DNA from: Ignavibacteriota bacterium
GTDB lineage: Bacteria; Bacteroidota; Ignavibacteria; Ignavibacteriales; Ignavibacteriaceae
Direction: 5' to 3'
DNA: 64,000 nt
NCBI GenBank assembly: GCA_013285405.1
Contig: CP053446.1
Location: 2,341,001-2,405,000 of the forward strand
Notes under the pieces: model-generated
What the model saw: only the letters and a program-made list of their open reading frames with translations
Databases searched by the model: none
What the model was told of the DNA's origin: nothing
Program-made: the position numbers and the translations under genes
In this document: piece by piece, positions 1,996 to 60,328 of the stretch
How positions within the stretch are numbered: position 1 is the first letter of the stretch
Layout of the letters: each line of letters begins with the position of its first letter

Positions 1996-3666
1996 ATGAA
2001 AAACTTTTTTTTGTTTTTCAGTTTCTTGTTCGTTTCGTTTTTGTTTCATTCAGTAATGGCTCAATCGGTGTGGATTCAGCAGAATGCACCCGGATTGCCT
2101 AATTCTCCTCAGCCACAGGTTATTTTTTCGCCTGTGAATGATAATGTCTGCTGGGGAAAAAACAGCAACAACTCACAATTTCTGCGAACAATCGATGGTG
2201 GAGATAACTGGACTGTTTCAACAGTTACAGGTGCTGCCGGATTAGAAGGTTCGAGCATTTCTGCTTTTGACGCTAATACGGCATGGATTGCAATGAATGA
2301 TCCTTCAAATGCAACAAGCGGTGGAATATTTGTAACGAACAATGGTGGTTCGATGTGGCTAAAACAAATTTCAGCTTTTCCAGGAGTAGGTGGACATCCA
2401 AATGTAATTCATTTCTTCGATCCTAATAATGGAGTTTGTGTTGGAAATCCAAGAGGCGGTTATTGGGAAATTTATACTACTACAAATGGTGGCACAAACT
2501 GGTTACGAGTTCCCTCAGCAAATATTCCTCCTCCATTAGCCGGTGAATTGGGAATAGAAAGTCCAAACATTAATTCAACGGCAACTTATTTCTGGTTTCC
2601 AACTCTTAGAAACAGACTATACAGAACAACTGATCAGGGTTATACGTGGACAGTCGCAGATAGTGTTACCGGCGGACCCAGCCAGATTGGTTTTGGGTTT
2701 GCATTCAAAGATGATTTGAATGGATTGGCGGCTGATTTTTACCCCAATAGTGTTATTTCAAAAACTACCGATGGTGGTGATTCATGGGTACCTATAAATC
2801 CGTACCCTTCGGGGCTAAATACAATATCTTCACTTTTTATTGTGTACAGACGAACAAATAACTCTTATGTCATCACTTCACAAACTGATCTTGGAGGAAA
2901 TCAAATGCAACCTGGTACTGCATATAGTGATACTTTTGGACAGAGTTGGACAGAAATCAGCAATATTTCATTAGGTCCGGCTGCATTTTTCGATTGCAAT
3001 ACAGGATGGGCTGGTGGAATAAATAATTTAATTTATAAATGGGTTACTGACTCTTTAACCTGTGAGGTTCCAGTAGAATTAATAAGTTTCAATTCTGCTA
3101 TAGATGGAAACAACATTCAACTTACTTGGCAGACGGCGACAGAAACAAATAATATGGGATTCGAAGTCTATCGAAATGGAAATAAGATTGCGTTTGTTGA
3201 GGGCAAAGGAACAACAACTGAACGGCAGGATTATTCTTTTACTGATAAAAATCTTCAGTCGGGCATTTATAATTACAGACTAAACCAGATTGACTTCGAC
3301 GGTACACAAGAGGTTGTTGGTGAGTTAACTGTATATCTAACATTACCGGAAGAATTCAGTTTAGAACAGAACTACCCCAACCCATTCAATCCAAGTACAA
3401 TAATAAAATTCACAATTCCTGTCACCCTGAGCGGAGTCGAAGGGTCTTTTGTAACACTGAAAGTTTATGATGTGTTAGGTAATGAAGTTGCAACTCTGGT
3501 GAACGAAGAAAAACCTGCAGGAAGTTATGAAGTCGAGTTTAACAGTCATTCTGACGAAGGTCAGAACCTGCCTGCCGGTAGGCAAGGTCTCTCAAGTGGA
3601 ATTTATTTCTACACTTTGCAAGCCGGAAATTTTACACAAACTAAAAAATTAATATTAATGAAGTAA
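1996..3666 (+). CDS. Secreted BNR/sortilin-type propeller protein with type IX secretion C-terminal domain
   Basis: Exported surface or secreted protein of unknown ligand. It has an N-terminal signal peptide ending M-A-Q, then at least five sortilin/Ycf48-like propeller repeats (DGGDNW, NNGGSMW, TNGGTNW, TDQGYTW, DGGDSW), a fibronectin-like segment (V-P-V-E-L-I-S-F) and a type A type IX sorting domain with NYPNPFNPST ending in KKLILMK. I start it at 1996 because a GGAGG lies 5 nt before that ATG; an in-frame ATG at 1984 would place the GGAGG inside the coding region. Two palindromic repeats are read in frame inside the sorting domain (3421-3446, 3545-3589). A terminator follows, so it is probably monocistronic. 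Confidence 0.85.
   Translation: MKNFFLFFSFLFVSFLFHSVMAQSVWIQQNAPGLPNSPQPQVIFSPVNDNVCWGKNSNNSQFLRTIDGGDNWTVSTVTGAAGLEGSSISAFDANTAWIAMNDPSNATSGGIFVTNNGGSMWLKQISAFPGVGGHPNVIHFFDPNNGVCVGNPRGGYWEIYTTTNGGTNWLRVPSANIPPPLAGELGIESPNINSTATYFWFPTLRNRLYRTTDQGYTWTVADSVTGGPSQIGFGFAFKDDLNGLAADFYPNSVISKTTDGGDSWVPINPYPSGLNTISSLFIVYRRTNNSYVITSQTDLGGNQMQPGTAYSDTFGQSWTEISNISLGPAAFFDCNTGWAGGINNLIYKWVTDSLTCEVPVELISFNSAIDGNNIQLTWQTATETNNMGFEVYRNGNKIAFVEGKGTTTERQDYSFTDKNLQSGIYNYRLNQIDFDGTQEVVGELTVYLTLPEEFSLEQNYPNPFNPSTIIKFTIPVTLSGVEGSFVTLKVYDVLGNEVATLVNEEKPAGSYEVEFNSHSDEGQNLPAGRQGLSSGIYFYTLQAGNFTQTKKLILMK
3421..3446. repeat. Palindromic repeat inside type IX sorting domain
   Basis: ACCCT (3424-3428) and AGGGT (3441-3445) bracket a GAGCGGAGTCGA core. 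It is read as V-T-L-S-G-V-E-G-S-F between two beta strands of the sorting domain. Confidence 0.65.
3545..3589. repeat. Composite palindromic repeat inside type IX sorting domain
   Basis: Two adjoining palindromes: TTCTGAC/GTCAGAA (3549-3566), then CCTGCCTGCCGGTAGGCAAGG-like bases (3567-3587). They are read as H-S-D-E-G-Q-N-L-P-A-G-R-Q-G-L. The second half belongs to the CCTGCCTGCC family also seen at 6195, 12423 and 14353. Confidence 0.7.
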
Positions 3667-3687
3667 AAAAACTTATCTTCTCAAATC

Positions 3688-3725
3688 AAACCCCTATCAA
3701 TATTTTTCGATAGGGGTTTGTTGTT
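3688..3725 (+). terminator. Rho-independent terminator
   Basis: Perfect 11-bp stem AAACCCCTATC (3688-3698) with GATAGGGGTTT (3709-3719), a 10-nt loop, then GTTGTTT. It closes the propeller protein gene. Confidence 0.85.
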
Positions 3726-3829
3726 TACCAGTTAGAAACTTTATCAACCGCTAATCAAATAAAAATAATGTTTCGGATTACATTTCTTAATTTCCTTTAA
3801 CATCAATTTTTAATTATTCGGAGGTTCAA

Positions 3830-4879
3830 ATGAAAAATCAGGTACAGTTATTAATTGGGGCAATTTTTCTTTTCTTTTTCTTCACACTTTCACTATCTGC
3901 ACAAAAAGATTTAACTCTTCCTGATGCAAGTCAACATGCAGTAGTTGTACAGCAAATAGGTATGTGTGAAATTAAAATCGACTATCATCGTCCTGGTGTG
4001 AAAGGACGAGAAGTCTGGGGCAAATTAGTTCCTTATAATCAGGTTTGGAGAGCCGGTGCAAATGAGAATACTACTATTTCATTTTCAAAAGATGTATTGA
4101 TCGATGGAAAAAATGTTCCAGCAGGAATTTATGGGCTGCATACAATACCGACTGAAAATGATTGGACAATAATTCTTAACAAAGACTATCGTGCTTGGGG
4201 AAGTTTCTTCTACAAAGAAGAAAATGATCTTATGAGATTTAATATAAGACCAGTATCATCTGATTTTCAGGAATGGTTGATGTACACATTTGATGAAGTT
4301 GCTCCTAATTCAGCTATTGTATCATTAAATTGGGAAAAACTTAAAGTTCCTTTTAAAATTGAAATTGATTTGCATAAACAAATGCTCGATGAGATGGCAA
4401 TTCAGCTTACTGGTATTCCGGGATTTTTCTGGCAAGGATGGAATCAGGCAGCTAACTACTGTTACATTAATGGATTAGCCCTTGAACAAGGATTAAAATG
4501 GGCAGATCATTCAATCGGAATAAACAAAAACGCAACAAATCTTTTTACTAAATCATTGATATTAACAGATCTGAATAAAACGGATGAAGCTGCTGAAATT
4601 AAAAATGAAGCTTTCAGTATAGCAACAGAAGCAGAAATGAATAATCTGGGTTATCAACTTATGAACGGTGGAAAAATTAATGACGCTCTCGAAGTCTTTC
4701 AAAAAAACACAGAACTATTTCCTGAAAGCTGGAATGTTTGGGATAGTCTTGCAGAAGGTTATATGAACAAAGGAGATAAACAGCAGGCAATTCAGTATTA
4801 TACCAAAGCGCTTGGTATGTCTCCTGAAAATCAGCACCAGAGAATTAATAACGCTTTAAGTCAGTTGACTGATAATTAA
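3830..4879 (+). CDS. Exported DUF2911 protein with TPR repeats
   Basis: Signal peptide (hydrophobic to about residue 24, then A-Q-K), a DUF2911 domain (about 30-175, with R-P-x-V-K-G-R-E-V-W-G and the conserved V-W-R-A-G-A-N-E), and a C-terminal TPR region (about 250-345). DUF2911 proteins are exported and common in Bacteroidota and relatives; no reaction is known. The start is supported by a GGAGG 5 nt upstream. It is flanked by a terminator on each side, so it is a single-gene unit. The family call is firm, the function unknown. Confidence 0.8.
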   Translation: MKNQVQLLIGAIFLFFFFTLSLSAQKDLTLPDASQHAVVVQQIGMCEIKIDYHRPGVKGREVWGKLVPYNQVWRAGANENTTISFSKDVLIDGKNVPAGIYGLHTIPTENDWTIILNKDYRAWGSFFYKEENDLMRFNIRPVSSDFQEWLMYTFDEVAPNSAIVSLNWEKLKVPFKIEIDLHKQMLDEMAIQLTGIPGFFWQGWNQAANYCYINGLALEQGLKWADHSIGINKNATNLFTKSLILTDLNKTDEAAEIKNEAFSIATEAEMNNLGYQLMNGGKINDALEVFQKNTELFPESWNVWDSLAEGYMNKGDKQQAIQYYTKALGMSPENQHQRINNALSQLTDN

Positions 4880-58743: not shown

Positions 58744-58817
58744 TCCGCAGTAGCTCAGTTGGTTAGAGCACCTGACTGTTAATCAGGGAGTCGTAGGTTC
58801 AAGTCCTACCTGCGGAG
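58744..58817 (+). tRNA. tRNA-Asn (GTT)
   Basis: Cloverleaf of 74 nt. The acceptor stem TCCGCAG (58744-58750) pairs with CTGCGGA (58810-58816), discriminator G. D arm AGCTCAGTTGGTTAGAGC, anticodon loop CT-GTT-AA with GTT at 58778-58780, T arm AGGTTCAAGTCCT. CCA is not encoded. Confidence 0.97.
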
Positions 58818-58819
58818 CT

Positions 58820-58850
58820 AATATCCGGTAGTTGCCGGATATTTTATTTT
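58820..58850 (+). terminator. Terminator or hairpin directly after tRNA-Asn
   Basis: AATATCCGG (58820-58828), loop TAGTTG, CCGGATATT (58835-58843), then a T-rich tract. The stem core TCCGG...CCGGA recurs at 59115-59130. Confidence 0.8.
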
Positions 58851-58866
58851 AAATAAAACAAGAAAA

Positions 58867-59112
58867 ATGTATTACACTTACGCTTTGTATTCACGGAAAT
58901 ATGATAAGATATATGTTGGCTCAACATCTGACATAGACAAAAGAGTAGCTAACCACAACGAAGGAAAATCAAGATACACAAAAAGTTACATACCGTGGGA
59001 ATTGATTTACTATGAAGAATTTGTGACAAGATCGTCAGCTATGAAAAGGGAGAAGGAATTGAAGACACATCAGGGAAGAGATTTTATAAGGAAGAAAATC
59101 TCAGTTGGTTAG
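58867..59112 (+). CDS. Small GIY-YIG nuclease, tRNA-associated
   Basis: 81 residues with a single GIY-YIG domain: Y-T-Y-A-L-Y (GIY position), then I-Y-V-G-S-T (YIG position), R26, H-N-E-G-K (Glu) and a C-terminal basic helix. It is close to the UvrC-N/YhbQ-like small nucleases. The last three codons and the TAG stop lie inside a copy of the tRNA-Asn D arm (59100-59114). It lies 49 nt after the intact tRNA-Asn, between the tRNA and its broken copy. Confidence 0.86.
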   Translation: MYYTYALYSRKYDKIYVGSTSDIDKRVANHNEGKSRYTKSYIPWELIYYEEFVTRSSAMKREKELKTHQGRDFIRKKISVG

Positions 59113-59150
59113 AGTCCGGCAGATGCCGGATTAATCAGGGAGTCGTAGGT
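59100..59150 (+). pseudogene. Broken tRNA-Asn copy split by a palindrome
   Basis: CTCAGTTGGTTAGAG (59100-59114) equals tRNA-Asn 58754-58768, and the 20 nt at 59131-59150 equal 58779-58798. Between them the anticodon stem bases are replaced by a 16-nt hairpin, TCCGGCAGATGCCGGA (59115-59130). The ends of the tRNA are missing, so it cannot be functional. Confidence 0.88.
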
Positions 59151-59155
59151 CGAAG

Positions 59156-59172
59156 ATTCGGCAATTGACGAA
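59156..59172. repeat. Degenerate TCCGG-type hairpin
   Basis: ATTCGGCAATTGACGAAT, a decayed version of the TCCGGCA/TGCCGGA hairpins at 58824-58839 and 59115-59130. Confidence 0.4.
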
Positions 59173-59293
59173 TTCTTCCGAAGGAATCCATTTGAAATAG
59201 TGTTGTTTGCTGAAATTAATTATCAGTTTATATTCCCGATTGTATATTTTAAACCTTGTAACACATTCTAAATTATAAATTCAAATTTTAGAA

Positions 59294-60328
59294 ATGACTA
59301 ATCTAATTACCGGTATAGTTTACGATCCCATTTTCTTACAACACGATTTTCATGGTCATCCTGAAAACTCCGCAAGGCTAAAGTCTATCATCACAACATT
59401 AAAAGAAAAAGGATTATTACAGGAACTTGCACAGGTAAAATCCCGGCAAGCTGATTTTAATGAAATAAGACTCTGTCATACAAAAGAATACATTCAATAT
59501 GTAAAAAGTTTTTGTGAAAAGGGCGGAGGTTATCTTGATCCGGATACCTATTCAACCAAATATTCTTTTCTCGCTGCTGCAACTGCCGTAGGAAGTTCGA
59601 TTGATTTAACTAAGAATGTAATCAATGGAAAATTAAAAAATGGATTTGCACTGCTTCGTCCTCCCGGACACCACGCACTTTCAAATCGTGCAATGGGATT
59701 TTGTTTATTTGGTAACATTGCAATCGCTGCAAAATTTGCTTTGACTCAAACAGGAATAAATAAAATTGCGATAGTTGATTTCGATGTTCATCACGGAAAT
59801 GGAACCCAGGCACTTGTCGGTGATGATCCAAATATTCTTTTCATTTCATCTCATCAATATCCTTTTTATCCAGGTACCGGTTCAATAAATGAAATTGGAT
59901 CAGGCGATGCAGAAGGAACTATTTTAAATATTCCTTTGCAAGCTGGAGTTGGTGATGAAGGATTGAAAATTGTTTATGAAGAGGTTGTAATTCCTTCCTT
60001 GGAAAGATTCAAACCTGATTTAATTTTAATATCTGCCGGTTACGATGCTCACTGGAAAGATCCACTTGCAAATCTTGATTTAAGTCTTGTTGGTTTCAAT
60101 TGGATATCAAAACAATTAATTAATTTTGCAAAAAATATTTGCGGTGGAAAAATAATTTTCTTTCTGGAAGGAGGATATGACCTTGATGTATTAAGTTATG
60201 GTGTAACTAATACAATTCGCAGGCTTCTCGGAATTGATGAATTTGAAGACCCAATTGGTAAATCAAATCAAAATGAACCTGATATTAAAAAACTCATAAA
60301 AGAACTAATAAAGATTCATAATCTTTAA
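59294..60328 (+). CDS. Histone-deacetylase-family protein (acetylpolyamine/AcuC type)
   Basis: 344 residues, zinc-dependent deacetylase fold. Motifs: R-P-P-G-H-H-A (catalytic His pair), D-F-D-V-H-H-G-N-G-T (zinc Asp and His), S-A-G-Y-D-A-H (Asp and second metal region), F-L-E-G-G-Y-D. Bacterial members deacetylate acetylpolyamines, acetyl-CoA synthetase or other small targets. The acyl-CoA synthetase at 26738 is a possible but unproven target. Single gene. Confidence 0.88.
   Translation: MTNLITGIVYDPIFLQHDFHGHPENSARLKSIITTLKEKGLLQELAQVKSRQADFNEIRLCHTKEYIQYVKSFCEKGGGYLDPDTYSTKYSFLAAATAVGSSIDLTKNVINGKLKNGFALLRPPGHHALSNRAMGFCLFGNIAIAAKFALTQTGINKIAIVDFDVHHGNGTQALVGDDPNILFISSHQYPFYPGTGSINEIGSGDAEGTILNIPLQAGVGDEGLKIVYEEVVIPSLERFKPDLILISAGYDAHWKDPLANLDLSLVGFNWISKQLINFAKNICGGKIIFFLEGGYDLDVLSYGVTNTIRRLLGIDEFEDPIGKSNQNEPDIKKLIKELIKIHNL

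Follow-up and report, generated by a model that had tools for sequence, protein, structure and literature searches.

A small GIY-YIG nuclease gene between tRNA-Asn and its broken copy points to a family of homing-like cassettes at tRNA and other conserved bacterial genes

Why would a gene for a very small nuclease lie between an intact tRNA gene and a broken copy of the same tRNA? The question arises in a 64,000-nucleotide stretch of the chromosome of an Ignavibacteriota bacterium (CP053446.1, positions 2,341,001 to 2,405,000), the whole of which is called the window here. All parts of the locus are on the forward strand. An intact tRNA-Asn(GTT) gene, the presumed target, occupies positions 58744 to 58818 (ARAGORN; Rfam tRNA, 74.5 bits). 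It is followed by its intrinsic terminator, ATATCCGGTAGTTGCCGGATAT plus a T-run (58821 to 58850, with the hairpin at 58821 to 58842), and by a gene for an 81-residue, single-domain, Slx1/UPF0213-like GIY-YIG nuclease (58867 to 59112; PF01541, E = 2.9e-17), the sole ORF between the tRNA gene and the remnant, where no integrase gene is present. The remnant starts inside the nuclease gene. Its first block, CTCAGTTGGTTAGAG (59100 to 59114), is an exact 15-nt match to tRNA nt 11 to 25, so that letters of the tRNA copy form the C-terminal residues and the TAG stop codon of the nuclease. A 16-nt palindrome, TCCGGCAGATGCCGGA (59115 to 59130), then replaces tRNA nt 26 to 35, the second block, TTAATCAGGGAGTCGTAGGT (59131 to 59150), matches nt 36 to 55 exactly over 20 nt, and an imperfect 27-nt palindrome (59152 to 59178) occupies the T-loop position. 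T-loop inserts were also found in other tRNA remnants, and position 26 to 35 of the tRNA-Asn remnant carries a different palindrome in other genera. ARAGORN, the PF01541 match and the exact repeats thus confirm the anatomy that an earlier note had described for this locus, the nuclease gene ending in the tRNA copy included.

A histone-deacetylase-like gene (59294 to 60328) marks the right flank. In two genomes of the same genus, G030 and G348, the site is empty: tRNA-Asn, which differs from that of the window by 1 nt, stands directly before this gene, and both nuclease and remnant are absent. In the occupied state of the window the tRNA is complete. The earlier note had counted the first TCCGG hairpin among the element's own parts. 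We rejected it as a part of the cassette, as it is the ordinary terminator of tRNA-Asn; the TCCGG look common to both hairpins is no cassette mark, because the terminator at the same spot in the empty-site relatives differs in sequence.

Judged by its sequence, the nuclease is a member of the GIY-YIG superfamily nearest to the Slx1/UPF0213 branch. Residues Y5, Y16, G18, R26, and E62 are invariant in 11 paralogues of its own genome, and H30 is conserved too. Profile matches gave E = 3e-14 for UPF0213 (1zg2) and E = 2e-8 for SLX1; I-TevI (E = 0.005) and UvrC (0.31) are far weaker matches than the 1zg2, 1ywl, and SLX1 chains, and the group I intron homing endonuclease family TIGR01453 reached 19.8 bits, below its cut-off of 56.05. 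The dN/dS ratios, taken from the closest pairs only, those with measurable dS, range from 0.15 to 0.21, which shows that the nuclease genes are kept as proteins by purifying selection.

Pattern and family searches of the window's own genome yielded 20 PF01541 matches, with 11 small loci besides two long proteins. Six of these small loci adjoin tRNA-Asn, tRNA-Asp, tRNA-Ser, tRNA-Leu, tRNA-Ala, and tmRNA, respectively. Five tandem copies of the GIY-YIG gene with a 315-nt period are found at tRNA-Asp, three with a 316-nt period at tRNA-Ser, and two at tRNA-Leu, where an insertion-sequence-like stretch lies between array and tRNA. The copies have the same palindrome, indicating that tandem arrays, which are common, stem from duplication rather than from repeated insertion. 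Two forms of the cassette can be defined: the 3'-type, with intact tRNA, gene, and remnant in this order, and the 5'-type, with remnant, gene, and intact tRNA. As a side observation, the stretch that divides the two-copy array from tRNA-Leu in locus L071 (about 2900 to 4300) resembles an insertion-sequence transposase.

Within the family, 57 of 61 genomes have GIY-YIG matches, and within the phylum 199 of 297 genomes do, representing 107 of 141 genera. Most of the 60 fetched family loci adjoin a tRNA, and 51 of 64 loci in the phylum sample lie within 400 nt of a tRNA or tmRNA, all 51 on the same strand; these fractions describe a subfamily and not all GIY-YIG genes, since most members behind the search profile were tRNA-associated and the loci fetched were those with the best scores. 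As a control, 0.4% of randomly drawn 250-nt intervals had a same-strand tRNA no more than 300 nt away. The pooled family and phylum set comprises 106 small GIY-YIG loci within 450 nt of a tRNA or tmRNA on the same strand (68 of the 3'-type and 38 of the 5'-type; 102 at a tRNA), with orthologous loci among those counted, which are not independent. A search for the tmRNA clade in 84,980 species genomes retained 80 loci, most of them within 400 nt of tmRNA, tRNA-Ala, or another tRNA and always on the same strand. The hosts of this tmRNA/tRNA-Ala clade are Pseudomonadota (mainly Bradyrhizobium, at tRNA-Ala(GGC)), Myxococcota, Cloacimonadota, Nitrospirota, Synergistota, Verrucomicrobiota, and others, and its members are mostly without long remnants. 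In many Bradyrhizobium species (L316 to L376), the gene was seen about 100 to 270 nt past tRNA-Ala(GGC), on the same strand. A phage or plasmid origin was also considered and rejected, matches in phage and plasmid records being few and weak, and close ones rare.

The remnants correspond to the neighboring tRNA. A distal own-tRNA remnant of at least 11 nt is present at 95 of the 102 tRNA loci, compared to 2.9% with tRNAs of mismatched isotype, and one of at least 15 nt at 81 of 102, compared to 0.1 expected with mismatched tRNAs. The gene overlaps the remnant in 27 of 60 3'-type cases, and 19 of 37 5'-type remnants end in the anticodon loop, at -3 to +6 nt relative to the first position of the anticodon. 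Stems of at least 6 are formed by 45 of the 73 insert or replacement tracts in remnants (shuffled mean, 2.2; maximum, 6; 200 shuffles). The earlier note had proposed looking in relatives for small GIY-YIG genes near tRNAs, together with tRNA fragments and hairpins, and they are there. It had also left room for chance, with a hairpin falling into a duplicated tRNA beside an unrelated gene. Nothing beyond the single locus taken alone speaks for this explanation, which is refuted by the recurrence in family and phylum, the own-tRNA remnants, and the palindromic tracts, and which we hold to be next to impossible. At two loci (L177, 1269 to 1342; L158, 1757 to 1841) ARAGORN calls palindrome-broken remnants as tRNA genes, so such remnants may be misannotated in public genomes.

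Are the palindromes themselves the mobile unit? If so, the invaders of dispensable tRNA copies would be short hairpin elements, with the GIY-YIG gene as their helper or a passenger, as RAYT is for REP. This would account for the 20 exact sites of palindrome type TCCGGCANNTGCCGGA that a pattern search found in the window's own genome, versus 0 for the reversed pattern, for the 31 of 73 tracts that are pure insertions, and for tRNA-less GIY-YIG genes lying between palindrome-like arms. However, the tract position is isotype specific across families (Asp, nt 51 to 59; Asn, 23-25 to 34-36; Arg, 22/23; 5'-type Ser, 21/22; Met, 56-58 to 62), and the inner letters of the palindromes at these positions differ with complementarity kept, which fits part of a cassette better than independent hits. 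Moreover, the tmRNA/tRNA-Ala clade stays at tRNAs even though it is mostly without remnants. Mobile palindromes are thus quite improbable as the main explanation. One palindrome, TCCGGCAATTGCCGGA, was noticed by eye at about 1501 to 1516 of L028 and L038, apparently in frame in a coding sequence like a C-terminal sorting domain.

In a tree of 76 proteins, which rests on a short alignment and has many forks without resolution, tRNA-isotype labels need 30 changes, compared to a shuffled mean of 56.6 (0 of 200 shuffles as low), and Asp, Met, Cys, tmRNA, and Ser(GGA) form single clades. Genus labels need 52 changes, a comparison that is indicative only, as the label sets differ in size. The nuclease clades therefore follow tRNA isotype, but vertical inheritance at conserved loci with repeated loss could cluster them likewise.

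Another question is where the nuclease goes when no tRNA is nearby. The earlier note had held that relatives away from any tRNA would speak against a tRNA-targeted element. Such relatives exist, but most of those closely examined lie inside other conserved genes. Three tRNA-less loci of the phylum sample are in RNase P RNA genes (RF00010), with the GIY-YIG gene between complementary arms. At L243 and L252, an extra copy of the 5' end of a gene for an NAD-dependent dehydratase is followed by the GIY-YIG gene and then by the complete dehydratase gene, and a separate GIY-YIG clade (L122, L134, L232, L247, and L255) interrupts tyrosine-recombinase ORFs (PF00589). Other tRNA-less hosts are four-helix-bundle-like or transposase-like ORFs, assigned by reading and with no Pfam match. 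Some details of these loci were recorded as well. The arms inside RNase P RNA are CCCCGCACATAAC and GTTATGTGCGGGG (L245, L246, and L272, at about 1020 to 1760 and 1500 to 2150), an arrangement resembling an ORF in a loop of this RNA; the two dehydratase 5' ends of L243 differ; the recombinase-interrupting clade mostly has arms such as CCCCGTGAGAT and ATCTCACGGGG; and at L076 and L143 the gene lies between the arms ACCCCGTCAAAT and ATTTGACGGGGT in a four-helix-bundle-like ORF.

These hosts also bear on an explanation at the RNA level, by which the nuclease or a tRNA-like leader acts on tRNA molecules, either as an anticodon-nuclease-like toxin or in mRNA processing through the remnant. Isotype-matched clades agree with it, as do remnants that are joined to the gene and form its leader or tail. 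Non-tRNA DNA targets, protein genes among them, do not; the relatives with solved structures are DNA nucleases, and no other Rfam family was convincing at the remnants examined. We assign this explanation a very low probability.

Occupied and empty states can be compared within the family at the tRNA-Pro(CGG)-yajQ site, where 8 of 19 genomes are occupied, 9 are clean empty, and 2 (G055 and G020) have a palindrome-bearing remnant without nuclease. The same tRNA-Pro is occupied in both 5'-type and 3'-type forms. Relatives without the insert, a comparison that the earlier note had suggested, are thus available here as well as at the window locus. That note had also taken a tRNA fragment without nuclease and hairpins as a sign of an old duplication. 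Remnants without nuclease are indeed present in G055 and G020, but since they bear palindromes and are set among occupied and empty relatives, they fit decayed cassettes. In one genus, tRNA-Pro differs at 13 of 76 positions between G026 (three copies) and G045 (empty), although the flanks agree at 185 of 201 nt upstream (92%) and at 428 of 495 in yajQ; the tRNA-Pro of this pair looks replaced. Such replacement or recoding of the target is not general, because tRNA-Pro of genus g3 reads alike in occupied and empty genomes and the window tRNA-Asn is nearly the same in both states. A cleave-and-rescue scheme, with the rebuilt tRNA fully recoded and so immune, was accordingly rejected as a general rule: the allele change is seen only in G026/G045, and remnants are identical to the intact tRNA over long stretches.

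Could the nuclease instead be an old host gene? An Slx1-like gene for repair or copy-number control of tRNA loci, inherited vertically and often lost, might leave remnants as by-products of local tandem duplication. The Slx1-like sequence, purifying selection, and tandem arrays are in line with this, and isotype clades are equally expected from vertical inheritance at conserved loci. Harder to reconcile with it are the mixture of occupied and clean empty sites at one conserved locus and within one genus, the two forms at the same tRNA-Pro, the insertions in genes for RNase P RNA, recombinases, and a dehydratase, and the spread over many phyla, and we consider a host gene unlikely.

The locus probably belongs to a family of minimal, free-standing cassettes of the homing type, which settle at conserved genes and restore those that are essential. 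This reading fits the anatomy, the pattern of gain and loss, the target-matched lineages, and the conserved-gene targets. The recurrence, own-tRNA remnants, and empty sites also support the homing or tRNA-targeted element proposed in the earlier note. In such a cassette, the nuclease would cut the conserved gene to which it is matched in a chromosome that lacks the cassette. Repair templated by a copy that has the cassette would insert a tRNA half together with the nuclease gene, so that an incoming half and a resident half would again make a complete tRNA, and the other resident half would be displaced to the far side. There the palindrome may remove the cut site, stop the displaced half from competing as a tRNA, and hinder loss by recombination between the two halves, and unequal exchange between repeats would then make arrays. 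Self-cutting must somehow be avoided, since the rebuilt tRNA would still bear the cut site. Several points count against homing: isotype clades could also come from old vertical inheritance with repeated loss, arrays come from duplication, the tmRNA/tRNA-Ala clade mostly lacks long remnants, and the profile was derived mainly from tRNA-associated members. A broader proposal, for which we see somewhat less than an even chance, is that these are widespread mobile one-gene elements of bacterial chromosomes that rebuild their target and disable the displaced part by their own palindrome, each lineage being adapted to a single essential RNA gene, be it that of tmRNA, of RNase P RNA, or of one tRNA isotype.

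The layout recurs in many bacteria, at many different tRNA genes as well as at those for tmRNA and RNase P RNA, and points to a little-noticed family of homing-like cassettes that leave their targets working. If this is true, a gene of about 80 residues without a partner protein settles in the most conserved genes of the cell in many phyla, each tRNA type having a nuclease lineage of its own, and provides a natural set of small nucleases with differing tRNA-gene specificities. It would also account for a class of misread tRNA-like fragments and of tandem repeats at tRNA loci, and would open to experiment the question of how a homing nuclease lives beside its rebuilt target without cutting it. 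No description of a bacterial family of small GIY-YIG genes lodged at tRNAs was found in the literature searched, most subscription journals being outside the search.

Known systems share single features with these cassettes. Integrative elements at tRNA 3' ends rebuild the tRNA and leave a partial copy as a repeat; the cassette differs from such islands as a one-gene unit without integrase, with 5' and 3' forms and many breakpoints at the anticodon loop. A mitochondrial element of Allomyces carries its own C-terminal atp6 piece and a GIY-YIG ORF, and is alike in that, on entering, it rebuilds the target gene and pushes the resident part aside, but its target is a mitochondrial protein gene, with no tRNA or isotype series. 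The gene 60 system of phage T4 is viewed as a cassette. It has a homing endonuclease beside its target, in which a non-coding insert is thought to protect against the nuclease (PMC5009743); in that system the ribosome bypasses the insert, which lies within the working gene, whereas here the insert is in a displaced copy and the working tRNA is clean. The Slx1/UPF0213 proteins are nearest to the window nuclease by sequence but unlike it in being known as structure-selective repair nucleases; the part of the superfamily survey consulted (PMC1564403) reports a GIY-YIG domain inserted in an HsdR gene and absent from a close homologue, and does not mention an association of GIY-YIG with tRNA genes. 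The nearest analogue is SegB of T-even phages, a free-standing GIY-YIG homing endonuclease enriched beside tRNA genes of many isotypes, which drives tandem amplification of tRNA segments via a short stretch of homology that the 5' region of the tRNA shares with the 3' region of segB (PMC13096335). The likeness lies in a free-standing GIY-YIG gene beside tRNAs. Unlike the phage gene, the cassettes are chromosomal and isotype matched, encode a single domain of about 80 residues of the Slx1/UPF0213 type, and come with palindrome-broken tRNA remnants and with RNase P RNA and tmRNA among their targets.
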